A stretch of 64,000 nt of DNA, from assembly GCA_000378885.1 (NCBI GenBank), contig KB900461.1, forward strand, positions 1-64,000, written 5' to 3'. A program made the position numbers and the translations under genes. This stretch comes from an actinobacterium SCGC AAA044-N04 (lineage in GTDB: Bacteria; Actinomycetota; Actinomycetes; Nanopelagicales; Nanopelagicaceae). The notes below the pieces were generated by a model. It was not told where the DNA came from, searched no databases, and saw only the letters and a program-made list of their open reading frames with translations. This document shows, one piece after another, positions 6,907 to 27,875 of the stretch (positions within the stretch are counted from its first letter, which is position 1; each line of letters starts with the position of its first letter).

Positions 6907-6950
6907 TATTGCGTATAACGCAATACTATTTCAAGGCTCTATCGTAGAGC
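6907..6950. promoter_or_regulatory. Two adjacent operator-like palindromes between divergent genes
   Basis: In the spacer between the APC permease start (6891) and gabD (6995) are two perfect dyads: TATTGCGT-ata-ACGCAATA at 6907-6925 and GCTCTA-tcg-TAGAGC at 6936-6950. Both have a 3-base centre. The position suits binding sites for one or two regulators controlling the divergent promoters. The regulator is not identified. Confidence 0.5.
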
Positions 6951-6994
6951 GCATTGGTTTCAACTTCTCGCAGGCTGAGCGTATGATTACCTCC

Positions 6995-8413: not shown

Positions 8414-8414
8414 C

Positions 8415-8502
8415 TGGCGGAGGATGAGGGATTTGAACCCTCGATAGGTTGCCCTATACACGCTTTCCAAGCGTGCGCACTCGGCCGCTATGCGAATCCT
8501 CC
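8415..8502 (-). tRNA. tRNA-Ser (anticodon GGA)
   Basis: An 88-base class II tRNA with 7-bp acceptor stem GGAGGAT/ATCCTCC, anticodon loop TTGGAAA on a CACGC/GCGTG stem, a long variable arm and the T-arm GGTTCAAATCC. The 3' CCA is encoded. Confidence 0.96.
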
Positions 8503-8561
8503 AGTGAAGCGGCTTAACCTTACCCGTTAATTGCTTTGTGCAAGAACCTAACCATTTACTG

Positions 8562-9809
8562 TTAGATCGCTAGCCAGAATGGATTTTCAAAGCGCTTAAC
8601 AAAGGCAGCCAGCCATTGTGCTGCCACCGCACCATCAATGGCACGGTGGTCAACTGAAACCGTGAAGTTGATGACGGAACGTATTTTGATTTCCCCGTCA
8701 ATCACTACCGGTTTTTGCTTGGCTGCACCAACAGCCAAAATTGCTGACTGTGGAGGATTTAAAATTGCAGAGAATTCATCAGTGCCATACATACCAAGAT
8801 TTGTAACAGAGAATGATCCGCCTTCAATTTCATTTTGCTTTAAGCGGCCATTACGAGCTCTGTCAATTAAATCGCCGGTTGAAATATTTAGCTGTGCAAG
8901 ACTCATGTGATTGATTCCCCTAACCACAGGTGTAATCAAACCATTATCTGTGGCAACAGCAATTGAAATATCAACATCACTAAATTGACGCAAAGCAGTA
9001 TCAGTCCAAATGACATTTGCTTGCGGAACATCTGCAAAGGATGCTGCAACAGTCTTTAGAATGAGATCAGTGACTGAGACTTTCTTGGGTGCCCATTCAT
9101 TATATTTTGCGCGAAAATTCAACATGTCATCTGCAAGCACTGGGGCTGAAAGATAGAAGTGTGGAACTGTTGTCTTGCTTTCAGTTAATCTGCGCGCAAT
9201 TGCCTTACGCATGCCAGAGTGCGGAATATCTGTAAAGCTTCCAGCAGGAATGACAACCGGAACTGCCTTTGCAACAGTAGTTTTTCCTCCCGCGATTGCT
9301 GCCTCTACATCCCGGCGAACAATGCGTCCATCAGGGCCTGTGCCCTGAATTGAATGTGCATCAAGACCATTTTCTTTTGCTAAACGACGAGAAAGTGGAC
9401 TGATAAATAAGCGATCTCCATGGTCTGTGTTTTTTGATGCAGGAGTGGCTACTGCTACAGGAGCAGCTACAGGTGCAGAAGTTTCAACAACTGGTGTTGT
9501 AACTGGTGCTGCGGCAACAGTTACTACACCTGCTTCAACCATCAATGCATCAATCTCAGTTTGTCCTTCACCTGCGGCAAGCAAGATTGCAATCGGTGCA
9601 CCGACTTGTACGAATGCACCGTTTTGAGCCAGGTACTTACCTAAAATTCCAGCAGTCTCGGCAGGAACTTCTACTAATGCTTTTTCAGTCTCGACTTCAG
9701 CCATTGCTTGACCAATAGTGAATGATTCACCCTCTTTTATTAGCCATTTAGCGATTACAGCTTCAGTTGCATTTGCCAAGACTTCTGGCATCCTCATTAT
9801 TGATGCCAT
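8562..9809 (-). CDS. Dihydrolipoamide acyltransferase (E2) of a 2-oxoacid dehydrogenase complex
   Basis: A 415-residue E2 with one N-terminal lipoyl domain (lipoyl Lys at K43 in VETEKALVEVPA), a low-complexity Ala/Val/Pro hinge, a peripheral-subunit-binding domain near 132-171 (SPLSRRLAKENGL, GRIVRRDVEAAI) and the catalytic acyltransferase domain with DHRAIDG near the C-terminus. The start abuts the upstream E1 stop (TAAATG), so E1 and E2 are co-transcribed. No E3 lipoamide dehydrogenase lies nearby; it must come from elsewhere. The acyl group (acetyl, acetoin-derived or branched) cannot be fixed from the sequence. Confidence 0.93.
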   Translation of the reverse strand: MASIMRMPEVLANATEAVIAKWLIKEGESFTIGQAMAEVETEKALVEVPAETAGILGKYLAQNGAFVQVGAPIAILLAAGEGQTEIDALMVEAGVVTVAAAPVTTPVVETSAPVAAPVAVATPASKNTDHGDRLFISPLSRRLAKENGLDAHSIQGTGPDGRIVRRDVEAAIAGGKTTVAKAVPVVIPAGSFTDIPHSGMRKAIARRLTESKTTVPHFYLSAPVLADDMLNFRAKYNEWAPKKVSVTDLILKTVAASFADVPQANVIWTDTALRQFSDVDISIAVATDNGLITPVVRGINHMSLAQLNISTGDLIDRARNGRLKQNEIEGGSFSVTNLGMYGTDEFSAILNPPQSAILAVGAAKQKPVVIDGEIKIRSVINFTVSVDHRAIDGAVAAQWLAAFVKRFENPFWLAI

Positions 9810-11999: not shown

Positions 12000-12063
12000 G
12001 TCGAGCTCCTAGGGGCAGAAATAATTCACTTATAAATTAAGTTCGAGAGAACAGTAAACCCAG

Positions 12064-12137
12064 ATTGCATCCAATCGCAAGGTTTTAGCCCCAAATTCTT
12101 CCCTTTAGGTGGTAAATAGGGCTAGATTGTATCCAAT
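12064..12137. promoter_or_regulatory. Paired ATTGYATCCAAT sites, candidate GntR operators
   Basis: ATTGCATCCAAT (12064-12075) and ATTGTATCCAAT (12126-12137) differ at one base and are near-palindromic (ATTG...CAAT). They flank the 157-bp spacer between the E1-E2 operon and the VOC-GntR operon. FCD-type GntR regulators often bind ATTGTATACAAT-like dyads, so control by the linked GntR protein is a reasonable inference. Confidence 0.55.
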
Positions 12138-12156
12138 TAGCAGAAAGGCGTGAGAA

Positions 12157-12684
12157 ATGGCTGGAATTCCAGGCTTAAGGGGTACCGAGCACATTGGCTT
12201 CACGGTCCCTGATCTTGATCAAGCCGAGCGCTTCTTTGTCGACGTCATTGGCTGTGAGCGCATTTACACCCTGGGGCCATTTATTAAAGATGACAATTGG
12301 ATGGCAGAGCATTTAGGTGTTCACCCACGAACAGTGATGCGCGAACTTCGATTCTTCCGTTGCAAATTTGGACCCAACTTTGAAATATTTCAATACGAAG
12401 CTGCAGACACTGCTGCGCCGCAACCTAAGAACTCAGATATTGGTGGACACCATCTTGCGTTTTATGTAGATGATTTTGATACAGCTTTGGAATATCTAAA
12501 AAATAAAGGCGTATCAATTATGGGTGAGCCAACATTAAGCAAGAGCCACTCTGAGGGTCAGAAGTGGGTTTACTTCACAAGTCCATGGGGCATGCAATTT
12601 GAACTTGTGTCTTTTCCTAACGGTAAAGCATATGAAGCTCAAGCGGCCACAAAACTTTGGCACCCCGCCCATCCGGAGTTGTAA
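12157..12684 (+). CDS. VOC (glyoxalase/bleomycin-resistance) superfamily protein
   Basis: A 175-residue protein of two VOC modules: HIGFTVPDLDQAERFFVDVIG near residue 12 and HHLAFYVDDFDTALEYLKNKG near 97, ending in WGMQFELVSFPNG. Conserved His and Glu residues (H12, E77, H97, E149 by position) could form a metal site. Members include lactoylglutathione lyases, epimerases and ring-cleaving dioxygenases, so the reaction is not determined. AGAAAGG precedes the ATG. It is coupled to the GntR gene through TAATG. Confidence 0.82.
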   Translation: MAGIPGLRGTEHIGFTVPDLDQAERFFVDVIGCERIYTLGPFIKDDNWMAEHLGVHPRTVMRELRFFRCKFGPNFEIFQYEAADTAAPQPKNSDIGGHHLAFYVDDFDTALEYLKNKGVSIMGEPTLSKSHSEGQKWVYFTSPWGMQFELVSFPNGKAYEAQAATKLWHPAHPEL

Positions 12685-13349
12685 TGCTAAATATTAAAAA
12701 TGAGACTGATCTTGCTCTAAGTCAGCAAATTGCAAATTCTCTGAAAGAAGAAATCCTTTCTGGAAAGTATCCTCCCGGAGTTCGAATTCGCCAAGAAGAT
12801 ATTGCAGAACAATTTGGTGCATCGCGTTCACCAGTTCGTGAGGCACTACGGATTCTTGAAGCAGAAGGACTTATTAATCTAGTGGCACATACCGGAGCAT
12901 GGATCTCTCATCTAAGTCTTTCTGAATGCGAAGAGATGTATCAACTTCGTGAACGAGTCGAGCCACTTTTACTTAGGTTGAGTATTCCTCATATTACTGA
13001 CGCGCTTATTGCCGAGCTGAAAGATCTTGTTTTGCAAATGGAAGCTACAACTGATGTGGAAACTTTTTTGAGATTGGATAGACAATTCCATCTACTTTCC
13101 TACTCAAAGGCTGAAACAGTTCTTGTAGGTGAGATGGTGAATCGATTATGGAATACAACTCAGCATTATCGACGTGCTTATTCTCAAATGATGGCGTCCA
13201 CTTCATTTAAACCAGCACACTATGAGCACCATTTATTGCTGGCTTCAATAATTAAGCGCGATGTAGACGATGCCGAAAGGATTTTATTTGGCCACATCCG
13301 GCGCACTAGGCTCGAATTAGCCCAGCACCCGGATGTCTTTAACTCTTAA
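12684..13349 (+). CDS. GntR-family transcriptional regulator (FCD type)
   Basis: A 221-residue regulator with an N-terminal winged helix (SGKYPPGVRIRQEDIAEQFGASRSPVREALR in two parts, about residues 26-57) and a helical C-terminal FCD ligand domain with metal-type residues (D in RLDRQFHLL, later H residues). The start at 12684 overlaps the VOC stop by one base (TAATG), preferred over an upstream in-frame ATG at 12657 inside the VOC gene. It probably controls the divergent E1-E2 and VOC promoters through the paired ATTGYATCCAAT sites, and perhaps the catabolic operon starting at 14574. Confidence 0.93.
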   Translation: MLNIKNETDLALSQQIANSLKEEILSGKYPPGVRIRQEDIAEQFGASRSPVREALRILEAEGLINLVAHTGAWISHLSLSECEEMYQLRERVEPLLLRLSIPHITDALIAELKDLVLQMEATTDVETFLRLDRQFHLLSYSKAETVLVGEMVNRLWNTTQHYRRAYSQMMASTSFKPAHYEHHLLLASIIKRDVDDAERILFGHIRRTRLELAQHPDVFNS

Positions 13350-14420
13350 TTAAGAACGCGGCGGAATGATTTTTTCAGCGCGTAGTTGCTCGAATAGATC
13401 AAAGAAAGAGTCTGGAGTTACTTGAACTTCTCGGTAACCCGCCTTGCGACTCTTACCCATGTCAGCAAAAGTTTCGACCTGACGACCTAAGTCAGCATCA
13501 GAGTGCCACCAGGAAGCAATTTCAGATGCTTTGTATGGCTTGAGGTTGTATTTAGAAACAATCTTTTCCCATTCAGCATCTGCGCCAGTCATGCGTGGCT
13601 CTAGAGGCGAAATTTCTCCAGGATGTCCTGGATCAGTTACACCGAAGTAGTCTGCAAGAAGTTTCCAGAGTTGTCGCCAGCGGAAGACGTCGCCGTTTAC
13701 AGTGTTAAAGGCTTCGTTCTTTCCTGCTGGATCCGTTGCAGACCAAACAGCATGACGAGCAAGCAAACGGGCATCAGTAACATCTGTAACACCGTTGTAT
13801 TGCTCTTTAGAACCTGGGAAAATAAAAGGAGCGCCAGTCTCTTTGCAGATGGAAGCGTAAACAGCAAGTGTTACACCCATATTCATTGCATTACCTAACG
13901 CCCAACCAATCATGGTGTGTGGACGATGCACTGACCAGGTGAATCCTTGTTCAGATGCAGACTTAAAGAGAATGTCTTCTTGTGTGTAATAGAAATTATC
14001 AATTGGTAGACGTGCTTGGCTCTCTTTAAATGGAGTCTCCATAGGAGTAGCTGCATAGGATTCAAATGGCCCGAGATAATGCTTCAGGCCTGTAATGAGG
14101 ACGGTGTGCTCCAGTGTGCGCTTTTGAGCAAAGGCATCAAGAGTGTTTTGTAGCATCGCACCATTAACGGCGATATTTTCTTTCTCAGTATTTTGTCTAG
14201 ACCATGTGCAAAAGAAAAGATGAGAAATAGGGAGGTCGGCAACAGCTGCAGCAACACTTGCTGGATCTAAAACATCTCCATAAACATGCTTAACACCCGG
14301 AATGATGATTCCCGGCTTACGGGAGAGCCCGTAGACAGTAAAACCCTTCTTCTGGAGTTCTTGTGCAATATTGTTGCCGGTAATTCCAGTTACTCCGATT
14401 ACAAGGGCGTTCTTGCTCAT
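13350..14420 (-). CDS. PRISE-like SDR family reductase
   Basis: An atypical short-chain dehydrogenase of the progesterone-5-beta-reductase/iridoid-synthase (PRISE) group. Markers are GVTGITGNNIAQELQKKG near the N-terminus, GLSRKPG, NGAMLQNTLDA, the Lys motif TGLKHYLGPFE and the Tyr in FYYTQED. These enzymes reduce activated C=C bonds or related enones with NADPH. About 356 residues from the ATG at 14420; a further in-frame ATG at 14432 is possible. It faces away from the SDR-ADH operon and shares its promoter region. The substrate is unknown. Confidence 0.82.
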   Translation of the reverse strand: MSKNALVIGVTGITGNNIAQELQKKGFTVYGLSRKPGIIIPGVKHVYGDVLDPASVAAAVADLPISHLFFCTWSRQNTEKENIAVNGAMLQNTLDAFAQKRTLEHTVLITGLKHYLGPFESYAATPMETPFKESQARLPIDNFYYTQEDILFKSASEQGFTWSVHRPHTMIGWALGNAMNMGVTLAVYASICKETGAPFIFPGSKEQYNGVTDVTDARLLARHAVWSATDPAGKNEAFNTVNGDVFRWRQLWKLLADYFGVTDPGHPGEISPLEPRMTGADAEWEKIVSKYNLKPYKASEIASWWHSDADLGRQVETFADMGKSRKAGYREVQVTPDSFFDLFEQLRAEKIIPPRS

Positions 14421-14453
14421 AGTCCCATCCATTCTGTGAATCTATTCAGGGTA

Positions 14454-14485
14454 TTGATGTTATGTGAGACTACACATAAAGACAA
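14454..14485. promoter_or_regulatory. Overlapping divergent promoters with a central palindrome
   Basis: The dyad TTATGTG-agacta-CACATAA occupies 14460-14479. Rightward, TTGATG (14454-14459) and TAAAGA (14477-14482) are 17 bases apart. Leftward, TTGTCT (14485 to 14480) and TAACAT (14462 to 14457) are also 17 apart. Both predicted promoters therefore share the palindrome as their spacer, so one bound repressor could shut off the PRISE-like gene and the SDR-ADH operon together. Confidence 0.5.
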
Positions 14486-14573
14486 GATACGGCTTAGAAC
14501 GTTCGCTCACACTTGACGCTTTGCGCTCGCAGTGCCAAACTTTTGGAAGTGCCGAGCCAACATTGGAGTTGAT

Positions 14574-15356
14574 ATGGGACGAGTAACTGGAAAGTCAATC
14601 ATCGTTACAGGAGCAGGCTCTGGCATTGGCGAGGGCTTTGCTCGCATCCTGGCGGCAGAAGGTGCAAAAGTCGGAGTCTGTGATCTAAACACAGCAGCGG
14701 CAGAGCGCGTAGCAAAAGCTATCAACGAGAATGGTGGCCAAGCATTGGCCTTGACTGCTGATGTTTCTAAGCGCGATCAAGTAAGAACAAGTTTTAAGAA
14801 CTTTGTGGATTGGGCTGGCTCACTTGATGTCATCTTTAATAATGCAGGATTTAACAAACCCATGCACCTCATGGAAGTTACTGAAGATAACTGGAATGCA
14901 ATCATGAACGTCAATGGACTTGGTGTTTTGATCTGCACTCAAGAAGCCGGCAAATACATGATTGCTCAAAAGAGTGGAAAAATTATTAACACTGCCTCCA
15001 TCGCTGGACGACAGGGTTATCCAGCTTTTGCTCCTTATTGCGCAAGTAAGTTTGCAGTCAATGCATTAACTCAAGCCACTGCCCGAGGATTAGCCGAGCA
15101 CAACATCACATGTAATTCTTTTGCTCCAGGTGTAGTAGATACGCCACTCTGGATTGATTTAGATCGAGATTTAATGGAGATGGGAATGTCAGAGCGTCCA
15201 GGACAGGCAACAGAAGAGTTCTCCGCTGGTATTTTGCGCGGACGTGCAGCTACACCTGCAGATTTGCAAGGTATGGCCCTTTTCTTAGCCTCAAGTGATT
15301 CTGACTATATGACAGGCCAAACCATCATGATTGATGGTGGAATGGTCCTTGTTTAA
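14574..15356 (+). CDS. SDR family NAD(P)-dependent oxidoreductase
   Basis: A classical short-chain dehydrogenase of 260 residues with the Rossmann motif TGAGSGIGEG near residue 11, NNAG near 90, catalytic Ser in TASIAGRQG and Tyr-Lys in YCASK. Acts on an alcohol or ketone; sorbitol/butanediol/acetoin reductases are the closest functional guesses. The start at 14574 has GGAG 5 bases upstream and is preferred over an upstream ATG at 14532. It is the first gene of a rightward operon with two alcohol dehydrogenases, a HIBADH-type gene and probably the ABC transporter. Confidence 0.9.
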   Translation: MGRVTGKSIIVTGAGSGIGEGFARILAAEGAKVGVCDLNTAAAERVAKAINENGGQALALTADVSKRDQVRTSFKNFVDWAGSLDVIFNNAGFNKPMHLMEVTEDNWNAIMNVNGLGVLICTQEAGKYMIAQKSGKIINTASIAGRQGYPAFAPYCASKFAVNALTQATARGLAEHNITCNSFAPGVVDTPLWIDLDRDLMEMGMSERPGQATEEFSAGILRGRAATPADLQGMALFLASSDSDYMTGQTIMIDGGMVLV

Positions 15357-15408
15357 ATCGAATTTTTAACGCATATCGACCATCTACTAATGAAATGAGA
15401 AGGAAAAA

Positions 15409-16386
15409 ATGAAAGCACTTCAATTCATGTCACCAAACACTATGGCTGTCAACGAGATTGCCATCCCAAAGATTGCTGACGATGAAGTACTTCTTGCCAG
15501 TCGATCCGTGGGAATTTGCCACTCAGATATCGAACTTCTAGAAGGCAGATACATCATTCCTTTTCAATATCCAATTATTCCAGGCCATGAGTGGTCTGCA
15601 GAAGTAATGGAAGTTGGAAGCAAGGTTTCAAAACTTAAAGCCGGCGATCGAGTCGTAGGCGAGTGCGTTATTGGTCAGGAACACTTTGGTTTTAGCATTA
15701 GCGGAGCAATGGCTGAGTTTTTCATCGCCAAAGCTGATTGGTTACACAAGCTTCCAGAGAATGTTTCTTGGACACAAGGTGCTTTAGTTGAACCGTTCTC
15801 TTGTGGTTATTACGCAACCGTTCGCGCCGACAATATGGATGCAAGTGACACTGTTGCCGTCTTTGGTGCAGGACCAATCGGTCTTGGAGTAATTGCTGCC
15901 TCAGCAGCAAAAGGTGCACGCGTCATAGTTATTGAACCCTCAGCTGATCGAGCAAAAGTTGCACTCAGTCTCGGTGCCGATGTGGTTATTGATCCAACTA
16001 AACAAAACACTAAAGATGCAGTTATGGAGGCCACACACGGTGTTGGTGCCACGATTGTTATCGATGCAAGTGGTCGACCAGATGCAATGGCAGCCACCCT
16101 TGAAGTTGCTTCATTCCATGGACGCGTTGTAATCATTGGCATCAGCGTTGGCGGAAAAGCACCTGCAGAGATGGGCTTGATCCAGTCAAAGGAACTGCAA
16201 GTGCGCGGAATTATCGGTTCTCCAGGGGTTTGGCCAGAAACCATCCGCTTCTTATCTCGAACTAATCTAGATCTTTCAAAGTTAGTAACTTCAAGTTTTA
16301 ATATCTCTGAAGCAGATAAGGCCTACCAGAAAGTTCTAACAGACAAGAGCCAAATCAAAGTTCATGTCACGAATTCAGGTAAATAA
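15409..16386 (+). CDS. Zinc-type alcohol dehydrogenase (MDR superfamily)
   Basis: A 325-residue medium-chain dehydrogenase with the catalytic zinc site C-H-S-D (GICHSDIELLEG) and GHEW, and the nucleotide-binding GAGPIGLGVIAASAAKGA. The structural-zinc four-cysteine loop is absent, the segment being replaced by a short ECVIGQEHFGFSISG stretch as in some sorbitol/threonine-type members. AGAAGGA precedes the ATG. The stop overlaps the next dehydrogenase start by one base. Substrate probably a polyol or secondary alcohol. Confidence 0.9.
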   Translation: MKALQFMSPNTMAVNEIAIPKIADDEVLLASRSVGICHSDIELLEGRYIIPFQYPIIPGHEWSAEVMEVGSKVSKLKAGDRVVGECVIGQEHFGFSISGAMAEFFIAKADWLHKLPENVSWTQGALVEPFSCGYYATVRADNMDASDTVAVFGAGPIGLGVIAASAAKGARVIVIEPSADRAKVALSLGADVVIDPTKQNTKDAVMEATHGVGATIVIDASGRPDAMAATLEVASFHGRVVIIGISVGGKAPAEMGLIQSKELQVRGIIGSPGVWPETIRFLSRTNLDLSKLVTSSFNISEADKAYQKVLTDKSQIKVHVTNSGK

Positions 16387-17450
16387 TGTCTTCAACTATG
16401 CGCGCAGCAGTACTGCACGACATTTTGGATTTACGCGTTGAGGATTTTCCAAAACCTTCTGCATTAGGTCCAGATGATGTTCTTGTGCACGTAAAGTACA
16501 ACGGACTTTGTGGCACTGATGCATCAGAGTATGCGAAGAGTTCGACAATGGTTCCTCTCAAAACTGCGCATCCCAATAGCAAGCACGTTGGGGCAACAAT
16601 TTTGGGTCATGAATTTATTGGCACTGTTGTCGAAGCTGGTTCTAGTGCTCAAGACATGTTAGGAAAAAGGATTGCATGCGGGGCCGGAGTTTCATGTGGC
16701 CAATGTTTACGTTGCAAAGAGGGACGCACAAATTTGTGCGATCACTACTACACGCTAGGACTAAGCATTCATGGAGGCTTAGCTGAATTTGTTGTGGCTC
16801 CAAAAGATATCTGTGTTCTTATTCCAGATGATGTGTCTGATGAGAGTGCAGCATTAACTCAACCTCTTGCTGTGGGCATTCATGGAGTTCGTCGTGCTGG
16901 TGTAAAAAAGGGTGACCAAGTTATTTTGCTTGGAGTAGGTGCTATTGGTTCCTTTGTATGTGTGGCTCTACAAAGTTATGGAGTCAATGTAGTTGCAATG
17001 GATATTAGTCAACAACGATTAGACGTTGCGACTCAACTTGGAGCAGACAGCACAATTTTGATTACTCCTGACATTACTCCGGCTGAAATCAAGGCACTCT
17101 TTCCTGCAGGAGCAGATGTTGTCTTTGAAACCTCTGGTGCACCTGGTGCTGCAGCACGCGGGCTTGCACTTGCAAAGCGCGGAGGAACATTAATGCTGAT
17201 GGGATTGAATAAAACCCCTCAGGACTTTCCATTTACTGATGCAGTGCTTCGAGAAGTAGTACTTCAAACAACAGTGGCACATGTGTGCAAAGACGATATG
17301 CCTGATGCTTTGGCGTTATTAGCATCGGGAACAGTTGCCAGACTATTAACTGATCGTGTTTATTCACTAGAAAACATTGGTGAGGCATTCGCAGCCCTAA
17401 CATCTGGCAAAGCTAATGGAAAGATTCTGGTTACTCCCCAAAATGTCTAA
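16386..17450 (+). CDS. Zinc alcohol dehydrogenase, (R,R)-butanediol dehydrogenase-like
   Basis: A 354-residue medium-chain dehydrogenase. The catalytic zinc motif GLCGTDASEY and LGHEFIG, a full structural zinc loop (CGQCLRCKEGRTNLC) and GVGAIGSFVCVAL are present. The insertion between the first zinc Cys and GHEF (PLKTAHPNSKHVG) resembles butanediol dehydrogenases. This gene plus the SDR and the fused E1-E2 could form a butanediol/acetoin route, although the adjacent sugar ABC importer argues for a polyol or sugar substrate. It overlaps both neighbours. Confidence 0.9.
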   Translation: MSSTMRAAVLHDILDLRVEDFPKPSALGPDDVLVHVKYNGLCGTDASEYAKSSTMVPLKTAHPNSKHVGATILGHEFIGTVVEAGSSAQDMLGKRIACGAGVSCGQCLRCKEGRTNLCDHYYTLGLSIHGGLAEFVVAPKDICVLIPDDVSDESAALTQPLAVGIHGVRRAGVKKGDQVILLGVGAIGSFVCVALQSYGVNVVAMDISQQRLDVATQLGADSTILITPDITPAEIKALFPAGADVVFETSGAPGAAARGLALAKRGGTLMLMGLNKTPQDFPFTDAVLREVVLQTTVAHVCKDDMPDALALLASGTVARLLTDRVYSLENIGEAFAALTSGKANGKILVTPQNV

Positions 17451-18331
17451 CATGAAATCTGTTGCAATACTTGGTGTTGGCAAAATGGGTTCGGCGATGG
17501 CAAAAGAATTAGCAACCGCTGGTTATCAAGTAACTCTTTGGAATCGAAACCAGTCAGTTGCTGACAAGCTTGCATCTGAAATAAATTTGCCGACAGTAAC
17601 TGTTTCAGTAACTCCCAAGTCAGCACTAGAAAATGCAGATATCGCACTTTGTTTGTTTACAAATGGAATAGTTACACAATCAGTCCTTCTCGATGACACT
17701 CAAGTATTAGAAGGTGTTAGAAGCAATCTGATAATTGTTGACATGGGAACAAGTGGTGTTGAAAGCGCTAAAGCGTTAGCGAGCGCCCTTGCCTCAAAGA
17801 AGATTGCATTTATAGATGCACCTGTCTCAGGAAGTGTTGTAACGATTGCTGCTCATCAACTTCTTGTCATGGCAAGTGGTGATAAAGCTGTGATCGAACA
17901 AGCTACGCCGGTCTTTTCAGTTTTTGCTAAAAAAAACTGCCTACCTCGGACAAGCCGGTGCTGGTCAAGCCATGAAACTTGCAGTCAATCTGATTGTTCA
18001 TACCCTCAACGCTGCAGTCAGTGAAGGATTAGCTCTTGCAACAGCAAGTGGTATTGATGCCGCTGCTGCTTATGATGTTCTTGAAGACAGCGTGGTGGCT
18101 GCACCGTTTGTAAAATACAAAAGAGCGGCATTTTTAGATCCTGAGCTGCCGGTGGCGATGCGCATAGATACAGTGCTCAAGGATTTGAACCTGATTTTGG
18201 GCCTTGGCCACACCACGGGGGTCCAGTTAACGGCCACCGAGGGGGTAGCAGAGCTTTTTGCCCTCGCCCAGGCGGGGGGCTATGAATCCAAGGACATGTC
18301 AGCCCTGTTTAGCTATCTCAGCCAATCTTGA
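17443..18331 (+). pseudogene. HIBADH/tartronate-semialdehyde reductase-type dehydrogenase, frameshifted at an A8 run
   Basis: The N-terminal Rossmann half (VAILGVGKMGSAMAKELA, DMGTSGVESAKAL, DAPVSGS) is open from 17443 to the A8 run at 17929-17936 and then goes out of frame. The C-terminal helical domain (YLGQAGAGQAMKLAVN with the catalytic-type Lys) continues in the +1 frame to 18331. Removing one A restores FAKKTAYLGQAG and a normal dehydrogenase of about 292-295 residues. Causes may be a sequencing error, a true mutation, or a slippage-based switch. The family oxidises 3-hydroxy acids. It overlaps the end of the butanediol-dehydrogenase-like gene. Confidence 0.85.
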
Positions 18332-18411
18332 TGAAAATGTTATAGAAAGTCCTTGTTAACGACCTCACTTCCTCTGTACAGTCACACTTTACATAGAGCC
18401 GAAAGGTGGCC

Positions 18412-19422
18412 ATGGCTACTGCACCTGCACGTGAATTGAAGCGTTCTGCACGCTTACAGATTTCGCGTGGAATGAAGACGGTGTTGGCTGGAACCATCAT
18501 TCTTTACATAGCCAGCGCCTTTTTCGCGCCAACAAGTGTGAGCAAGGTTGCGCAAATGGGAATGCTTCCCTTTGCAGCTTGTTTGGCAATCGTTGGGCTT
18601 GGCCAAACACTTGTGATTCAACAAGGAGGCATCGATCTTTCTGTTGCTGGAGCTGTTTCATTAACAGTTGTCATTGTTACATGGGGACCTGATCGCAATG
18701 ACGATCGTCTACTACCAGCAGTTGCCGCAGCATTTGGTGCAGCAATTATCACCGGGTTAGTTAATGGCTTCCTAGTTACCAAAACAAAACTTAATTCCAT
18801 TGTTGCAACACTTGGCGTGAACGCCCTTTTGTATGGCGTCATGATGGGTCTCTCTGGCGGAAGTCCTCGCCGAACAACTGAGCGTTTGTCACATTTTGCA
18901 AACGATAAATCTTTTGGACTTCCTCATTCAATTTACTTTGGAATTATCCTGACAATAATTGTCACTATCTTATTAAAGCGAACAGTCTTTGGGCGACGAT
19001 TTGAAGCGGTGGGAGCAAACCCTCGCGCAGCACATGCAACTGGTCTAAAGATTATTCGCTATCAAATCGGCGCTTATGTTGCCGCACAAATTTTATATTG
19101 CGCAGCCGGAGTAATTCTTGGTGGCGTTATATCGCAGCCAACGGCCTATCAAGGTGATGACTATGTATTGCCATCAGTAGCAATTGTTGTATTAGGAGGA
19201 ACTTCTCTCCTTGGGGGTCGTGGTTTCCCAGCAGCATCTGCCTTTGCAGCTTTGTTCTTAAAACAACTAGACATGTTTGTACTCTCACTTGGTGTTCCGT
19301 ACGGCGTGCGCACGATCGTTATTTCAGTATCTCTGATGCTGGGAATTGCCCTATATGCAGTGAATTGGAAATCAGCGAATTTCTCATTCAAAAAACCAGA
19401 CAAGGAACTGCAGCTTGTCTAA
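18412..19422 (+). CDS. Sugar-type ABC transporter permease (RbsC-like)
   Basis: A 336-residue permease of the BPD_transp_2 family with about nine hydrophobic segments and the family signature GLGQTLVIQQGGIDLSVAG in the first third. The frame is open from a GTG at 18406, but GAAAGG at 18401-18406 is well spaced for the ATG at 18412. It works with the binding protein downstream. The cognate ATPase gene begins at 20698 but is broken. The likely ligand is a monosaccharide, polyol or related compound. Confidence 0.92.
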   Translation: MATAPARELKRSARLQISRGMKTVLAGTIILYIASAFFAPTSVSKVAQMGMLPFAACLAIVGLGQTLVIQQGGIDLSVAGAVSLTVVIVTWGPDRNDDRLLPAVAAAFGAAIITGLVNGFLVTKTKLNSIVATLGVNALLYGVMMGLSGGSPRRTTERLSHFANDKSFGLPHSIYFGIILTIIVTILLKRTVFGRRFEAVGANPRAAHATGLKIIRYQIGAYVAAQILYCAAGVILGGVISQPTAYQGDDYVLPSVAIVVLGGTSLLGGRGFPAASAFAALFLKQLDMFVLSLGVPYGVRTIVISVSLMLGIALYAVNWKSANFSFKKPDKELQLV

Positions 19423-19428
19423 ATTAAG

Positions 19429-19453
19429 TTTCGACCTCGTAAGAACGTCGAAA
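19429..19453 (+). promoter_or_regulatory. Hairpin ahead of the binding-protein gene
   Basis: TTTCGAC (19429-19435) and GTCGAAA (19447-19453) form a perfect 7-bp stem with an 11-base loop between the permease stop and the binding-protein start. It may protect or attenuate the transcript; there is no T-run. Confidence 0.4.
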
Positions 19454-19493
19454 GTGCGTCAACGTATGCCGCACAACTGAGAAAGGAAAAAAC

Positions 19494-20582
19494 TTGATAC
19501 GCTTAAAATCTCGGGCCACTTTAGTCGCGAGCGCTATCGCAGTTGCAGCACTAACAGTGTCAACTAGCTTAGTCGCTGTTTCTTCAGCGAATGCTGCTCT
19601 CCCTTCATGGTGCGGCCCAAAGAAAATTACAATGGGATTCACTGATGGATTTGGTGGAAACTCATGGCGTCTAGTCACAACAGCCGCAGTTCGTGAAGAA
19701 GTAAAGCTATGTCCAAATGTGACAAAGCTTTACTACGCAGATGGACAAGGCAAGACTGACAAGGCAATTTCAGATATTAAGGGAATGGTTGCTAAGGGCG
19801 TAAAGGCTCTTGTTGTATTCCCTGATGCTGGCCAAGCAATGCTTCCAGCTCTTCGTTCAGCTTATAAGGCTGGCGTTGTAACTGTTCCTTACCGCGTAGC
19901 TCCAGGTGGAACTGCAGGCAAGGATTACAACATGTTCATTGGTTCAGACTTCGTCTTGGCTGGAAAGCTTTGGGGAGAATGGATTAAGAAGAATCTTCCA
20001 AACGGTGGAAACATCCTAAGAATTTCTGGACCAGCTGGTAACAGCCAAGGTGCAGATGAGTCAAAGGGATTAGCTCAGGTTCTTGGAAATGATCCAAAGT
20101 ACAAGTTCATTGGTGCAGATCCATTTGAAGTTACCGGTTGGGATCCAGGAAAGACTCAAGAAGTCTTGACTGCAGCAATCGCAAAGTATCCAAAGATCGA
20201 TGTAATTACATCTGACTTCGGACCATCAATGGTTTCTGCACTTCAGGCAGCCGTTGCTTCAGGTTGGAAAGTTCCTGCAATCGCAACTTCAGACGGTAAC
20301 GTTCTAGGTTGCTTCTACCAGGACAACAAGGCTTCACAGCCAGACTTCAAGATGATGACAATTTCTACTCAGAACGACCACTCGCGCCTAGCCGTACAGT
20401 GGGCTGTTGCTCTTGCAACAGGTGGAAAGAAGCCATCTGATAAAGCATTCCCTTCAACTTTGTTTGAAGATTCAGTCTCTGGAAAGCCATCAGCTGTCCA
20501 GTGCCGTAAGGATCTTCCTGGCGATGTTTACTTGTCAGCAAAGATGTCAGGAGACGCTCAAGCTAAGTTGAAGAACAACTAA
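19494..20582 (+). CDS. Sugar-type ABC transporter substrate-binding protein
   Basis: A 362-residue periplasmic-binding-protein (Peripla_BP_4 type) with a Sec signal peptide: basic start, hydrophobic core near residues 9-30 and a likely cut after SSANA. There is no lipobox Cys. The body has FTDGFGGNSWR, VVFPDAGQAMLPAL and the hinge-proximal ISGPAGNSQGADE typical of sugar binders. The only suitable start is TTG at 19494, preceded by GAAAGGA. A strong stem-loop follows the gene. The ligand is not identifiable. Confidence 0.92.
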   Translation: MIRLKSRATLVASAIAVAALTVSTSLVAVSSANAALPSWCGPKKITMGFTDGFGGNSWRLVTTAAVREEVKLCPNVTKLYYADGQGKTDKAISDIKGMVAKGVKALVVFPDAGQAMLPALRSAYKAGVVTVPYRVAPGGTAGKDYNMFIGSDFVLAGKLWGEWIKKNLPNGGNILRISGPAGNSQGADESKGLAQVLGNDPKYKFIGADPFEVTGWDPGKTQEVLTAAIAKYPKIDVITSDFGPSMVSALQAAVASGWKVPAIATSDGNVLGCFYQDNKASQPDFKMMTISTQNDHSRLAVQWAVALATGGKKPSDKAFPSTLFEDSVSGKPSAVQCRKDLPGDVYLSAKMSGDAQAKLKNN

Positions 20583-20606
20583 GCAAGCAGTAATTGAAGT
20601 AGGTAA

Positions 20607-20651
20607 TGGGGAGTCAGATCGGCCGCATCTAGCAGCTGGTCTGGCTCCCCA
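20607..20651 (+). terminator. Stem-loop after the binding-protein gene
   Basis: TGGGGAGTCAGA (20607-20618) pairs with TCTGGCTCCCCA (20640-20651) over 12 bp with one G-U pair. It is not followed by a T-run, so it is better read as an intra-operon mRNA-stabilising or attenuating hairpin that raises binding-protein yield over the ATPase. Confidence 0.6.
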
Positions 20652-20697
20652 CTACACGTACTATTAGATTTATCTACATAACCAGATCAATTAAGAA

Positions 20698-20759
20698 ATG
20701 AGTCAAAACGTGTCACGCTCTCCGCTGATCTTGTCGAATATATCCAAGAGTTTTGCTGG
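20698..20759 (+). pseudogene. N-terminal fragment of the sugar ABC transporter ATPase
   Basis: Starting at 20698 the frame reads MSQNVSRSPLILSNISKSFAGV, the standard N-terminus of RbsA/MglA-type ATPases, in the expected place after permease and binding protein. It then enters the reverse complement of the DMT gene start at 20760, before the Walker A motif. About 480 residues are missing. The rest is not in this window. See the inverted repeat. Confidence 0.85.
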
Positions 20760-20830
20760 AGTTCGCCATTTGCCCGTGTCTGCAATGAAATCAACACGCC
20801 TGAGAGTGCGGCTAATAAATCTAAACGCAT
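20760..20830 (-). pseudogene. 5' fragment of the DMT transporter gene
   Basis: Twenty-three codons (MRLDLLAALSGVLISLQTRANGE and part of the next) identical to the start of the gene at 25-966, placed directly after yqhA as TAAATG. The fragment ends where the ABC ATPase fragment begins. It shows that yqhA and the intact DMT gene belong together. Confidence 0.9.
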
Positions 20831-20854
20831 TTACTGATGCGTGCCGTGAAATTC
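20760..20854 (-). repeat. Right copy of the 95-bp inverted repeat
   Basis: Exact reverse complement of bases 1-95. On this strand it carries the last seven codons and stop of yqhA (20854-20831) and then the ATG (20830) and first 23 codons of the DMT gene. The match ends at 20760, where ABC-ATPase sequence begins. Exactness, the abrupt edge and the length suggest an assembly-graph overlap or a recent rearrangement rather than an old repeat. Confidence 0.97.
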
Positions 20855-21361
20855 ACGCTTGTCGGCAATCCAATCCATCAGTGCAAATAGAACGCCAGAG
20901 GCGACAAATGTGAGGTGAATAATGATTCTCCATTTAGTTCCGCCACCAACATGGTCCTGACCAGAGAGTTCAATAAAGTCTTTGAGAAGTTCAATTACTG
21001 AAATTGCTACAAGAGAACCAATTAACTTAATTTTCAACCCGCTAAAGTCAATTGTTCCCATCCAGTGTGGACGATCTTTTGATTCTGTTGCCACATCAAT
21101 TCGAGAAACAAAGTTCTCATATCCTGCAAAGATAACCATCAAGATGAGGTTAGCCAGCAAAGTTAAATCGAGTAGCGCGAGCAGATCTAGAGTAAAGCTC
21201 TGAGGAGTTGCATCACCAATTTTTTCAGCTAAATGGATAAATTCGATGATAAAACGGTAACCCAAGAGAACCAGTGCACCTACTAACCCTAAATACAGTG
21301 GAGCAAGTAGAAAGCGAGAGCGAAAGAGAATTACTTCAATAGCGTGTGAAAGTTGACTCAT
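20831..21361 (-). CDS. YqhA family (UPF0114) membrane protein
   Basis: A 176-residue membrane protein with about four hydrophobic helices, matching UPF0114: FRSRFLLAPLYLGLVGALVLLGY at the N-terminus, FAGYENFVSRID in the middle and DFSGLKIKLIGSLVAISVIELLKDF. The function is unknown. Its last codons lie in the inverted repeat and are duplicated at 1-24. Confidence 0.9.
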   Translation of the reverse strand: MSQLSHAIEVILFRSRFLLAPLYLGLVGALVLLGYRFIIEFIHLAEKIGDATPQSFTLDLLALLDLTLLANLILMVIFAGYENFVSRIDVATESKDRPHWMGTIDFSGLKIKLIGSLVAISVIELLKDFIELSGQDHVGGGTKWRIIIHLTFVASGVLFALMDWIADKREFHGTHQ

Positions 21362-21376
21362 GTAGGGGATTTTAAC

Positions 21377-23146
21377 TTATCCCTCAAGCAAAACTGTGAC
21401 CTGAAGCCATTCTTCCTCGAGTCTGTTTTTCTCACCCCGCAACTGCGCTATCTCATTGGTAATTTCAATCAAACGTTCTGCATTAAATGATGATTCTTCT
21501 TGCTCACCCTCTAATTCGGTAATCCGAGAATCGGCTTTCTCCATTTGTCGCTCAAGGCGCACTTTGTCTTTCTTGAGTTGTCTTTCTTCAGCGGCGCTAG
21601 AAGTCTTCTTCTCTTTGGGAGCGCTGGCATCGGGTTGCAAAGCTTCGTGGCGAAGCTCTAAATATTCATCTACTCCGCGAGGAAGATCTCGGACATTCTT
21701 ATACCCCAACAATCCAACAAAGCGATCACACACGCGCTCTAAGAAATACCTGTCGTGGGAGATAACAATCAGAGTTCCACCGTAACCATCAAGTAAATCT
21801 TCCAGCTCAGTCAGAGTCTCGATATCAAAATCATTTGTTGGTTCATCCAGCAAGAGAACATTGGGGCTATCCATGAGCAAACGTGTGAGTTGTAAGCGGC
21901 GTTTTTCACCCCCTGATAAATCGCCAACAGGAGTCCATTGAGATTCTCTATCAAAGCCTAAGCGCTCACAGAGCTGTGAAGCTGATAGTTCTCGTCCTCC
22001 ACCAATTTCAACACGGTTGGCAATTTTTTCAACAGCTTCTAATACACGCCACGTTGGATCTAACTCATCCAGATGCTGCGTAAGGAATGCGGCTTTAACA
22101 GTAATTCCAGTTACAAGTTTGCCTGATGTTGGTTGGATTTCACCTACTAGAGTTTTCATTAACGTTGTTTTTCCCGCGCCATTCACACCCACTATACCAA
22201 TGCGATCACCCGGGCCAACATTCCAATACAAATCACTAATTAATTCATTGTCTCCAAGTTTTACTTGAACATGATGTGCCTCATACACCGTCTTACCTAA
22301 TCGGTTAAGGGCAAACTTAAGTAATGCTCCTTGATCGCGCGGTTCAGGTTCTCCTGCGATTAACACGTTAGCTGCATCGACTCGAAATTTTGGTTTGGTC
22401 GTGCGCGCTGGTGCTCCCCTTCGAAGCCAAGCTAGCTCTTTCTTAATCAACATATTACGGCGTTGATCTAAAACAGATGCTTGGCGGGATCGTTCAGCTT
22501 TTGATAAAACAAAGGCGCTGTATCCGCCGTCGTATTCTTCTACTTTTCCATCGACAACTTCCCATGTGCGATCTGTTACGGCATCAAGAAACCAACGATC
22601 GTGCGTTACAACAGTTACGGCTAATCCTTTTCGGTTATTCAAATACTGCGCCAACCAGGCAACGCCTTCAACATCTAAGTGATTTGTTGGCTCATCCAAC
22701 AAAATCAGATCAAGTTCATTAATCAGTAGCTTGGCTAATCCCACACGTCTGCGTTCTCCACCAGATAACTGACCAAACTTGCGATCAAAAATATGATCAT
22801 CAAAAGAACCAAAGAGTCCTGTGAAGACTTCGCGAATGTTTGGCTCACTTGCCCATTCATGTTTTGCGGTATCACCTAAAACAACTTCGCCCACCGTGCT
22901 CTCAGGATTAGCTGAATCCACTTGAGACAACAAACCAATGCGTGCAGAATTAGATTTTGTCACGCGGCCTGCATCTGGTTTTTCAACGCCTGCAATGATC
23001 TTCATGAGCGTGGATTTTCCTGAGCCGTTTCGACCAACAATGCCGATGCGATCGCCTTCAGATACTCCTAAAGAGACCCCTATAAGTAGCTCTTTGATAT
23101 CAAAGGCTTTTGAGACCTCTTCGATATTTACAACATTGCGCGCCAT
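21377..23146 (-). CDS. ABC-F family ATPase (Uup-like)
   Basis: A 589-residue soluble protein with two ABC domains: Walker A GRNGSGKST near residue 38 and GVNGAGKTT near 325, signature LSGGERRR and LSGGEKRR, and Walker B LILLDEPTNHLD and VLLLDEPTNDFD. A charged coiled coil (about 515-585) follows, as in Uup. ABC-F proteins act on ribosomes or DNA junctions rather than in transport. On this strand TACGCT lies 8 bases before the ATG. It diverges from kynU with a 24-bp gap. Confidence 0.93.
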   Translation of the reverse strand: MARNVVNIEEVSKAFDIKELLIGVSLGVSEGDRIGIVGRNGSGKSTLMKIIAGVEKPDAGRVTKSNSARIGLLSQVDSANPESTVGEVVLGDTAKHEWASEPNIREVFTGLFGSFDDHIFDRKFGQLSGGERRRVGLAKLLINELDLILLDEPTNHLDVEGVAWLAQYLNNRKGLAVTVVTHDRWFLDAVTDRTWEVVDGKVEEYDGGYSAFVLSKAERSRQASVLDQRRNMLIKKELAWLRRGAPARTTKPKFRVDAANVLIAGEPEPRDQGALLKFALNRLGKTVYEAHHVQVKLGDNELISDLYWNVGPGDRIGIVGVNGAGKTTLMKTLVGEIQPTSGKLVTGITVKAAFLTQHLDELDPTWRVLEAVEKIANRVEIGGGRELSASQLCERLGFDRESQWTPVGDLSGGEKRRLQLTRLLMDSPNVLLLDEPTNDFDIETLTELEDLLDGYGGTLIVISHDRYFLERVCDRFVGLLGYKNVRDLPRGVDEYLELRHEALQPDASAPKEKKTSSAAEERQLKKDKVRLERQMEKADSRITELEGEQEESSFNAERLIEITNEIAQLRGEKNRLEEEWLQVTVLLEG

Positions 23147-23170
23147 GATGGGAGAGCGTACCTTTCCTTC

Positions 23171-24442
23171 ATGAACGTTACTGACCGCGCTTATGCTCTA
23201 GAGCTAGATAAAAACGATCCTCTCGCTCATTTCAAATCACAATTCGTGGTCACAGACCCGCAGATGTGTTATTTGGATGGAAATTCATTAGGTCGTCTTC
23301 CAAAAGAGACTATTTCTGCCGTGAACAATCTCATGACTGAATGGGGCTCAGAAGTTGTAACTGGCTGGGGACATTGGGTTGATGAAGCACAGCCAACCGG
23401 GGATTTACTAGGCCAAGCAGCTTTAGGTGCAGCTCCTGGACAAATTCTTGTCTGTGACACAACTTCAGTTAACTTCTATCAACTCTGTCTTGCGGCGGTG
23501 CATGCACGTCCTGGTCGTAAAACAATCATCACAGATGCTGCAAACTTTCCGACAGATCGATACATCCTGGATGGAATTGCTAAGCAGTTTGGGTTAAATC
23601 TAGTCCTTATCCAAAATGAAGATTCTGCAGTTGCAACACATGAGCGCATCACTACCCAAGTTCTTGCTCCATATCTCAATGATGATGTTGCACTTGTAAC
23701 ACTACAAGTTATTCAATATCGCTCAGGTGCTAGAACTGATATCAAATCAATTACCGATCAAGTACGTGCAATTGGTGGTTTAGTTGTTTGGGATGCCAGC
23801 CATGCAGTAGGTGCAATTGAATTAAATCTTGATGCAAACGGAGTTGATCTTTGTGTTGGTTGCACATATAAATATGGAAACTCAGGTCCAGGTTCACCTG
23901 CTTGGTTATATGTAAGCAAAAAGATTCAAAAAGAATTACAAGTTCCAATTCAGGGATGGTTTGCGCAAGATGCCCAGTTTGAAATGGGACCGGTATTTGA
24001 GCGAGCACAAAACATCCGCGGCTTCCAGATTGCTAGTCCATCCCTCATTGGTATTCGCTGTGTTCAGACAGCTTTTTCCATGATTAAGGAGGCTGGCATA
24101 GATGCAATCGCACATAAGGCTGCAGTTGGTACTCAAATGATGATCGATCTTTATGATGCCTGGTTAGCTCCACTTGGATTTGCACTTAACACTTCACGCG
24201 ATCCTAAAGAGCGTGGTGGACATATCTCATTGGTTCACCCAGATGCTGCTCAGATATGCGTTGCAATGCGCGAGATTTCTAATGTAATTCCTGACTACCG
24301 CACGCCTAATTCAATCCGTTTGGCTATCTCACCACTTCCAACATCATTTGTTGAAGTGTGGGATGGTTTTGAGAGAACGCGCGATCTAGTGGCATCTGGC
24401 CAATACAGAACAATAAAAGAGGGCGGTTCAAGAGTCACATGA
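23171..24442 (+). CDS. kynU: Kynureninase
   Basis: A PLP enzyme hydrolysing kynurenine to anthranilate and alanine. The 423 residues match the family: YLDGNSLGRLP near 34, GWGHWVDEA near 65, WDASHAVGA near 207 and the PLP Lys K234 in CTYKYGNSGPG. TACCTT (23159-23164) lies 6 bases before the ATG. It is coupled to tryptophan 2,3-dioxygenase by a 4-bp overlap. No arylformamidase is present between or beside them. Confidence 0.95.
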   Translation: MNVTDRAYALELDKNDPLAHFKSQFVVTDPQMCYLDGNSLGRLPKETISAVNNLMTEWGSEVVTGWGHWVDEAQPTGDLLGQAALGAAPGQILVCDTTSVNFYQLCLAAVHARPGRKTIITDAANFPTDRYILDGIAKQFGLNLVLIQNEDSAVATHERITTQVLAPYLNDDVALVTLQVIQYRSGARTDIKSITDQVRAIGGLVVWDASHAVGAIELNLDANGVDLCVGCTYKYGNSGPGSPAWLYVSKKIQKELQVPIQGWFAQDAQFEMGPVFERAQNIRGFQIASPSLIGIRCVQTAFSMIKEAGIDAIAHKAAVGTQMMIDLYDAWLAPLGFALNTSRDPKERGGHISLVHPDAAQICVAMREISNVIPDYRTPNSIRLAISPLPTSFVEVWDGFERTRDLVASGQYRTIKEGGSRVT

Positions 24443-25233
24443 GCGAAAACTTCGATTCAGCACTGACATACACATCTTATTTAGCTGTAGATGAACTTTT
24501 AAGCCTGCAGCGTCCACTCTCACAAGGGCCAGAGCATGATGAAATGCTTTTCATCATCATTCACCAAACTTATGAGCTCTGGTTCAAACAGATTATTCAC
24601 GAATTTGCCGAAGCACAACGTGCTATGGAATCAGCAGACACTCATTATTCTCTAGCGATTTTGGGTCGCATCCGTACGATTCTTAAAGTCTGTGTTACAC
24701 AGATTGATATTTTAGAGACTATGACACCTTTGCAGTTCAACGCATTCCGTTCATATCTTTCATCATCAAGCGGTTTCCAGTCTGCACAATTTCGAAAAGT
24801 TGAGGCTTTGCTTGGCCGTCGCGATACAAAAATGGCGGGTCACCTACCACCTGCAATTCAAGCTGAGATTGCATTAATAACTTCAGGTAATTCAGTATGG
24901 GATTCAGCTCTGGCTTATTTATCAAAGCGTGGACACGCAATTCCAACTGATGTTTTAGAACGTGATCGCACTTTGCCATATGAGGCTAATTTGCGCGTCC
25001 AAGATGTTCTACTTGCAGTTCATACTAAAGATCCTGAGAGTGCAATGATCTGTGAGCGCTTGGTGGATATTGATGAAGGAATGCAAGAGTGGCGCTATCG
25101 CCATGTGAAGATGGTGGAGCGCACAATTGGTCACAAAATTGGTACTGGTGGTTCAAGCGGTGTGGAGTACCTTGCAAGTACTTTATTTGCGCCAGTATTT
25201 AAAGATTTGTGGGAAATCCGTTCACGCTTTTAA
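24439..25233 (+). CDS. kynA: Tryptophan 2,3-dioxygenase
   Basis: A haem enzyme opening tryptophan to N-formylkynurenine. The diagnostic HDEMLFIIIHQTYELWFKQ near residue 35, RSYLSSSSGFQSAQFR near 109 and the haem His region WRYRHVKMVERTIGHK near 216 followed by GTGGSSG are intact. At 264 residues it is of normal bacterial length. ATGA overlap with kynU. The 3' end overlaps the convergent nitroreductase by 4 bp. Confidence 0.96.
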   Translation: MSENFDSALTYTSYLAVDELLSLQRPLSQGPEHDEMLFIIIHQTYELWFKQIIHEFAEAQRAMESADTHYSLAILGRIRTILKVCVTQIDILETMTPLQFNAFRSYLSSSSGFQSAQFRKVEALLGRRDTKMAGHLPPAIQAEIALITSGNSVWDSALAYLSKRGHAIPTDVLERDRTLPYEANLRVQDVLLAVHTKDPESAMICERLVDIDEGMQEWRYRHVKMVERTIGHKIGTGGSSGVEYLASTLFAPVFKDLWEIRSRF

Positions 25234-25805
25234 TTCGGTAAACCTTTAACCACAATCTCTTCTAATGCTTTGCGCTCTCGTGGTGCAATTTCTCTCTCTA
25301 GCATGGTCCCTTGTAATAGCTCAGCCGGTGCTTGCTTACCAATTGCTATAACTGCAATCGGTGTAAGAGAAGGATCTACTCCTAGATTTTCTCCAGCTTT
25401 TGCAGCATCAAAGCCAGTCATTTGGTGAGCAACAAGTCCTCGGTGGTGTGTTTCAACAACCATTTGAGCAACAGCAAGACCGCAGTCATAGAGATAACCC
25501 TTATTTGGTGTTCCATCTTCACGTGTGTGAACGCCAGCAACAACTATTAACACAGATGATCGGTGGGCCCATCCCTGATTAAAAGAAACTAGAGAATCTA
25601 AAATCTGTGAAAAGGTTTCATCCCCACGATGTCCAATAAAGAAACGCCATGGTTGACCATTGTGTGCTGATGGTGCCCAGCGTGCAGCTTCCAATATTGC
25701 CAATAGATCTTCTTTTGAAAGAACAGTTGCTGCATCTAATGAGCGAGGGCTATGTCGATTGGCTAATACTTCGTTAATTTCTACTGCGGTCTGTGCTTTC
25801 ATCAT
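25230..25805 (-). CDS. Nitroreductase family flavoprotein
   Basis: About 191 residues, FMN-dependent, with RHSPRSLDA near the N-terminus, AARWAPSAHNGQPWRFF near 45 and a C-terminal PRERKALEEIV. The physiological substrate is unknown. I chose the ATG at 25805 because TAGACT (25817 to 25812) lies exactly 6 bases upstream; an in-frame GTG at 25811 is less likely. Confidence 0.88.
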   Translation of the reverse strand: MMKAQTAVEINEVLANRHSPRSLDAATVLSKEDLLAILEAARWAPSAHNGQPWRFFIGHRGDETFSQILDSLVSFNQGWAHRSSVLIVVAGVHTREDGTPNKGYLYDCGLAVAQMVVETHHRGLVAHQMTGFDAAKAGENLGVDPSLTPIAVIAIGKQAPAELLQGTMLEREIAPRERKALEEIVVKGLPN

Positions 25806-25838
25806 TTCCACAGTCTAAGTGCAGGCTAGAGTTATCGC

Positions 25839-26462
25839 ATGTCGGGATGGATTCATCACACTGCAGATTGGCTAATAGCTAATAATTTGCAAACCCCACT
25901 ATTTATTCTTCTCATTTTCCTTGCATTTGCTGAAGCTGCTGCATTTGTGGGCTTTGTATTACCAGGCGAAACATCCTTATTAATTGGTGGAGTGCTTGCC
26001 CACGCCCACGTGTGGCCTTTCTGGCTTTTCCTAATTTGCTCGATAGTTGGTGCAATAGCCGGTGATTCTGTTGGTTATGAAGTTGGTAAACATTTTGGCC
26101 CACACATCAAAACAACTCGGTTCGGCAAGCTCGTTGGTGCTAAACGCTGGCGATTAGCTGAGCACATCTTTGATAAATACCATGGTGGTGCAATATTTTT
26201 CGGCCGTGCTCAAGCGCTACTACGTGCTCTTGTTCCATCACTAGCCGGCATGCACCAAGTTCCCTATAGAACGTTTCTGAAATGGAACGCTGCTGGAGGA
26301 ATTGTCTTTAGCACCGTGGTTGTCAGCCTCGGATATCAGTTTGCAAGCTCGCTCTCAACCCTTGAGAAATACCTTAAGTATTGGGCTGCATTATTTTTGT
26401 TTGTAGTTGTGACTTTGGTATTGATTATAAAAAACAAGCTAGAAAAGATGATCGAAGAATAA
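25839..26462 (+). CDS. DedA family membrane protein (second copy)
   Basis: A 207-residue VTT-domain protein with VGFVLPGETSLLIGGVLA near 37, GAIAGDSVGYEVGKHFGP near 70 and FFGRAQALLRALVPSLAGMHQV near 123. It is only distantly similar to the DedA at 914-1519. TAGAGT (25827-25832) sits 6 bases before the ATG and there is no Shine-Dalgarno, so the mRNA is probably leaderless. Confidence 0.92.
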   Translation: MSGWIHHTADWLIANNLQTPLFILLIFLAFAEAAAFVGFVLPGETSLLIGGVLAHAHVWPFWLFLICSIVGAIAGDSVGYEVGKHFGPHIKTTRFGKLVGAKRWRLAEHIFDKYHGGAIFFGRAQALLRALVPSLAGMHQVPYRTFLKWNAAGGIVFSTVVVSLGYQFASSLSTLEKYLKYWAALFLFVVVTLVLIIKNKLEKMIEE

Positions 26463-26468: not shown

Positions 26469-27875
26469 TTAAACAATTTCCACTAAGTCGCCATAAGCAG
26501 TTTTTGCAATCTCTTCACGCTTGGCGCGGTAAGCAGGGCTTGCTCCAGTTATTAAGTGTTCAAATCTGGTGGCAGATTTAATTAACTTATGTAGCTCAGC
26601 TGAATCTGTTGAATCACCAAATACTGGAGGTTCTTGCTTGGTTACCTGAACAACAATGTGTGGGTTAATGAATCGATATACCAGCGCAACTCTGCGTAAT
26701 CCTAAATTAGCGACATGGCGTAAACCGCGATTAATATGATCTTGAGCCATTAAACGGATGAAAGTGAAAGTTTTAGCTTTTGCGGGAGCTTGAGCATTTG
26801 CAAGTGAAAACAAGATATCTGCGATCTCTTGGCCGCCAGTTGTGTTTGGAAGTTCTGCGCATTTTGCAGATAAGCCTGCACGCACTTGTGGATCCTGTAG
26901 TTGCTTAACCGTCTTTGTAATATCAGCTAAATCTGCTTGATCTGCCCGTAATGCATAGCCAAAATCATGACACCAACGAGCTCGAGCCTCTTGATCATCG
27001 GTGCCACGAATGTTTGAGACAAACACTGTTGGTACCTGTGCTGGCAATAGCTCGTGCACACCGTTATATCCAGTTGCACAAATACCAGCATCAAATGCAT
27101 GCAACACTTTTGCTAGCGGGAAATAGCGCGCAACTTTTATGTCTAGCCCCTCTGGAGCTAATGAATTTCCATCTTTATCAATGGGAGCTTTAGTTAAAAC
27201 AACTTGCAAATCTTTCCAGCCAAGCAAGCCTTCCAGAGCTGCAGTCATCTTGTGGTTAACATCGCTATCACCTGTTCCCAGTTGAACTAATGCAACTGGG
27301 CGGTTTTGATCAAGACCTAAAGCTTTACGAGCATCTTCGCGAGATAGCGCATCTTCTTTTCTAAAAAGTGAAACAGGAGATGTTAAAATAGAGTCTTTAC
27401 GTTTTGATGTTGGACCAAAATCATAAGCACGAGCAATATCTCCTGGCTCAACAATTGCATCCATCATTTTTGCTTGTAAACCTAAAATGAAGCGCTGCGG
27501 CTTCTTCTGCCACAATCCACGACGAACCCACACAAGTTTTAATTTTGGGTTTGCATTGCGCGCAGCTATTACGCCTGGGTAAGGAACAACACCATCAAAA
27601 GATAAACCTTTTGCATCTGTCTCTTCAACTAATGCTAAAAGGCGATCGCGTAAGTATGCATCCCACTTTTCGCGTGACATCCATAAACGATCTCGCCCTG
27701 GGATGTATTCGCAGCGAATACCCATAAAGGAAGGAATCTCTGCAATTCCACCAGCCATTGAAACGATAATTGGATTTGCAACAGGCTTTAGTGCAAGAGC
27801 CACTGCGCTTGCTCGTGCCAAGTGACCCATTCCAACACCATTGCTGGTTGCAAGGATGATTGTGGGTTTGGACAT
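26469..27875 (-). CDS. GT-B glycosyltransferase (MurG/UGT-like)
   Basis: A 468-residue soluble protein. The N-terminal GVGMGHLARASAVALAL is the glycine-rich acceptor-site motif of GT-B enzymes. The C-terminal half has VQLGTGDSD and FDAGICATGYNGVHELLPAQVPTVFV, resembling the nucleotide-sugar site of MurG/UGT families. The tail after about 360 is not recognised. Acceptor and donor are unknown. TAGGCT lies 7 bases before the ATG. It diverges from potA with a 56-bp gap. Confidence 0.75.
   Translation of the reverse strand: MSKPTIILATSNGVGMGHLARASAVALALKPVANPIIVSMAGGIAEIPSFMGIRCEYIPGRDRLWMSREKWDAYLRDRLLALVEETDAKGLSFDGVVPYPGVIAARNANPKLKLVWVRRGLWQKKPQRFILGLQAKMMDAIVEPGDIARAYDFGPTSKRKDSILTSPVSLFRKEDALSREDARKALGLDQNRPVALVQLGTGDSDVNHKMTAALEGLLGWKDLQVVLTKAPIDKDGNSLAPEGLDIKVARYFPLAKVLHAFDAGICATGYNGVHELLPAQVPTVFVSNIRGTDDQEARARWCHDFGYALRADQADLADITKTVKQLQDPQVRAGLSAKCAELPNTTGGQEIADILFSLANAQAPAKAKTFTFIRLMAQDHINRGLRHVANLGLRRVALVYRFINPHIVVQVTKQEPPVFGDSTDSAELHKLIKSATRFEHLITGASPAYRAKREEIAKTAYGDLVEIV

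Follow-up and report, generated by a model that had tools for sequence, protein, structure and literature searches.

The stretch of actinobacterial DNA analysed here, a window of 64,000 nucleotides, begins with 95 bases that return at 20760-20854 as their reverse complement, and this raises the question of whether the segment between the two copies has been turned around in the chromosome or only in its assembly. The copies show zero mismatches, as the first-pass annotation had claimed, and their identity ends sharply, at base 96 on one side and at 20759 on the other; an exact match of 95 bases is far above chance expectation. Window base 1 is the physical start of a contig of 385,719 bp (C16) in the organism's own assembly (G000), that of a Planktophila-like (acI) actinobacterium with 1,286,658 bases (1.29 Mb) in 23 contigs and 87% completeness; the 95-base sequence occurs at just these two sites in it. 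The duplication is an artefact and not a property of the organism, whose chromosome has the order found in relatives. Very probably, an inverted chimera from multiple displacement amplification (MDA), most likely of a single cell, was locked in by de Bruijn assembly at k = 95, leaving the first 20.7 kb of the contig flipped.

The left copy (1-95, plus strand) is a shared k-mer at the contig start; it holds the native start of a DMT gene, downstream of yqhA, and is contiguous with base 96 onward in a closed related genome (G015). This DMT gene is of the YdcZ type (PF04657) and is intact at 25-966 on the plus strand, by gene call and domain match. The right copy (20760-20854, minus strand) carries the end of yqhA and 71 bases from the start of the DMT gene (25-95, about 23 codons) before it runs into the false join; homology to relatives stops at 20759-20760. 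Here yqhA (UPF0114, PF03350; 20831-21361, minus strand) is itself intact, and in the native order it adjoins the DMT gene on the upstream side, as judged from its domain match and the loci of relatives. Across the join lies the start of a sugar ABC transporter ATPase gene (20698-20763, plus strand), which opens with an ATG at 20698 and runs for 22 native codons (MSQNVSRSPLILSNISKSFAGV) up to the junction—the first-pass annotation had read the two truncations correctly, at about 23 and about 22 codons.

The remainder of the cut ATPase gene is found in another contig of the same assembly. A query with window 20500-20860 gave a third match, in which 20710-20763 is the reverse complement of the final 54 of the 17670 bases of contig C21 (17617-17670), and the 22 codons from the ATG at 20698 enter the C21 reading frame in phase. 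Because the codons continue in frame into C21, the ATPase is unbroken in the organism. The C21 remainder belongs to a frame of 822 codons that encodes two ABC ATPase domains together with a permease domain. In this single frame (C21 15202-17670, minus strand) ATPase and permease are fused; a separate second permease is encoded at window 18406-19422.

Related genomes give the native order. In G015, window 20759-25842 aligns to 41311-36228 on the minus strand and window 1-8413 to 41216-49629 on the plus strand; the joined segments natively lie on opposite strands, with the plus and minus blocks meeting at the junction. The two aligned blocks form one unbroken head-to-tail stretch in G015, where the 95-base sequence is present in single copy, both window copies corresponding to that one piece; taken out to 40000, the minus-strand alignment from 20759 remains part of the same continuous region. 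Reversed C21 (from C21 base 9644) comes next, at 50809-58836, and a second closed relative, G014, has the same gene order as G015. This collinearity and the shared 95-base piece mean that window 1-20759 is flipped relative to the rest of C16, as had been proposed from the window by itself, and the continuation of the ATPase in C21 agrees.

When 60 relatives were searched with window 20500-21361, no match crossed the junction, and the yqhA/DMT-side matches that reach it start at query position 260-261, which is the junction itself. The order ABCF-yqhA-DMT is present in most of 19 relative loci, usually with a DedA-type gene next. In 53 of the 75 loci with room from named acI genomes (Candidatus Planktophila and relatives), DMT comes after yqhA on the same strand; it was not found directly downstream in the remaining 22. 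The binding protein and the permease of the sugar transporter were found in none of the yqhA loci of these genomes. The YqhA of IMCC19121 is 99% identical. By gene order comparison, the yqhA-DMT arrangement that the first-pass annotation took as native holds in the two closed relatives and in most relatives that have both genes.

The length of the duplication points to the assembler. In contig C22, 85 Ns separate two direct copies of a 95-base sequence (1677-1771 and 1857-1951). Alignment to G015 makes the two sides overlap over exactly these bases, so that the scaffold gap is false and no real gap exists; a scaffolder leaves this pattern where two graph edges have a 95-mer in common. One fixed overlap length, 95 bases, recurs at six places: the start and end of C16, the ends of C18 and C20, the start of C19, and C22. 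The overlap across the false C22 gap and the inverted copies of that length at four other contig ends bear out the earlier suggestion of a de Bruijn k of 95. The likeness to k-mer overlaps of SPAdes-type assemblers lies in a stretch of exactly 95 bases at contig ends or flanking a scaffold gap, and we observed no difference. Published work at JGI on amplified sorted-cell mini-metagenomes ran SPAdes in single-cell mode (-sc) with -k 25,55,95 (PMC7065516); we infer that the same assembler and settings were used for this genome.

The inverted copies at other contig ends came from a query of 16 further ends in G000 (fifteen contigs of less than 3 kb read as N and were left out as candidate native partners). 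Exact 95-base inverted copies within the same contig occur at the end of C16 (385625-385719 with 381496-381590), the end of C18 (93598-93692 with 69689-69783), the start of C19 (1-95 with 3613-3707), and the end of C20 (49537-49631 with 27064-27158). Aligned to G015, the C16 end, C18, and C19 each have a segment falsely inverted against the remainder, and C20 has a chimeric 95-base tail. The nine contigs longer than 4.8 kb have 18 ends between them, and with the window case included 5 of these carry the mark. C18 starts at the onset of the C16-end false join and C22 ends at the onset of the C18 false join, in parallel to C21, which ends at the window's join. The sister joins share about 2-7 bases, with G015 as a stand-in for the native flanks, and span 3.6, 4.1, about 22, and 24 kb; the window join spans 20.7 kb. 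At the latter, the junction alignment shows four bases, AGTT (20760-20763), common to both native sequences—the context is GGAGTTGCAGCC on the ATPase side and GATAGTTCGCC on the DMT side.

These joins resemble known products of amplification. Chimeras from MDA are inverted in more than 85% of cases, with 83% of inversions within 10 kb and 17% beyond, and are primed mostly at 2-21 nt of complementarity, which is less often reported for inversions beyond 10 kb (PMC1855051); overlap length peaks at 6 nt (PMC4595205). The likeness to the chimeras of both studies consists in inverted joins between sites of the same genomic neighbourhood, short stretches of shared sequence (the 4-base AGTT falls in the 2-21 nt range), and one junction only. 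The difference is in distance: three of the five joins here span 20-24 kb, in the rarer long tail, and the window join at 20.7 kb is beyond the typical spacing of less than about 10 kb. Such spans are above the usual length, yet inside the reported range. Because five of five joins are inverted, lie within one contig, and have short overlaps, MDA fits, whereas biological inversion and random ligation do not. From the same five chimeras we infer, and strongly, that the source was amplified single-cell DNA, as the first-pass annotation had suggested.

A chimera that arose in library ligation, or in the assembler alone, without MDA, is very unlikely by comparison with these data. A chimeric molecule of any origin, given sufficient reads, would lead to the same 95-base branch. 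However, random ligation would link unrelated sites in both orientations, and the five joins are all inverted, have short overlaps, and connect sites separated by 3.6-24 kb in a genome of 1.29 Mb; for the assembler to err on its own, a true repeat of about 95 bases would have to exist, and the sequence is single-copy in G015. Amplification, and not library ligation, thus appears to have made the chimera.

In an MDA origin, a 3' end at either the start of the ABC ATPase or the boundary between DMT and yqhA would have been displaced during phi29 amplification, would have paired through AGTT with a strand of the other site, 20.7 kb off, and would have been extended there, giving a single inverted junction. 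Two exits would then have led from the DMT-start 95-mer in the assembly graph, one native (base 96) and one chimeric (20759); the assembler may have taken the chimeric exit and started the contig at the shared vertex, with the native ATPase continuation left over as C21.

A true inversion of 20.7 kb in the chromosome of the sequenced cell or strain, which the first-pass annotation had left possible, is extremely improbable. A strain-specific event need not show in relatives, and short microhomology also occurs at real rearrangements. Such an inversion, however, requires a second junction, here one that links DMT, starting at base 96, to the ATPase read from C21 17616 downward. In a search of G000, a query of these two halves matched only separately, in C16 and in C21; the reciprocal junction is absent. 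A biological inversion would show both inverted junctions and neither native one, whereas the assembly has one inverted junction together with both native ones, of the DMT gene and of the ATPase. Moreover, a simple inversion would not copy 95 bases, a length equal to the assembler's k; it would break the ATPase and DMT genes, yet both are intact across contigs; and the same mark is on four further contig ends. A sub-population that truly has the 20.7-kb inversion, its second junction lost through uneven coverage, is equally remote. The 24-base junction had no match in a scan of the whole collection (which may not include the organism's own genome), and a plasmid search with the junction region returned weak, generic ABC-transporter matches only. 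An invertible element such as a phase-variable switch would also have a segment flanked by an exact inverted repeat, but its likelihood is negligible: the repeat pair is absent from relatives, the sequence is plain coding DNA (yqhA end, DMT start), and one copy, of length k, ends at the contig end. A misjoin, the other reading of the first-pass annotation, is upheld by the exact repeat, native order in relatives, the C21 continuation, k = 95, the missing reciprocal junction, and the four sister cases.

For users of this assembly, at least four places have a false gene order: C16 at 20760, C16 at about 381586-381590, C18 at about 69777-69783, and C19 at about 3613; one further contig (C20) ends in a chimeric tail. 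Claims of inversions, broken genes, or synteny drawn from G000 at those places are not trustworthy. Screening contig ends for inverted copies of exactly k bases offers a simple automatic error test for assemblies of amplified cells.

Window 8414-20763 and C21 from about 8027 to 17670 together form a block of about 22 kb of sugar, dehydrogenase, and ABC transporter genes, bordered by tRNA-Ser(GGA) on one side and by the next stretch conserved with G015 on the other. Its absence from G015 suggests a genomic island next to a tRNA gene; a repeat of the tRNA end (at least 12 bases) was not found at its far side. At window 17416-18331, a hydroxyisobutyrate-dehydrogenase-like gene is apparently split over two frames (17416-18024 and 17924-18331); visual inspection of the translations suggests a frameshift or a sequencing error.
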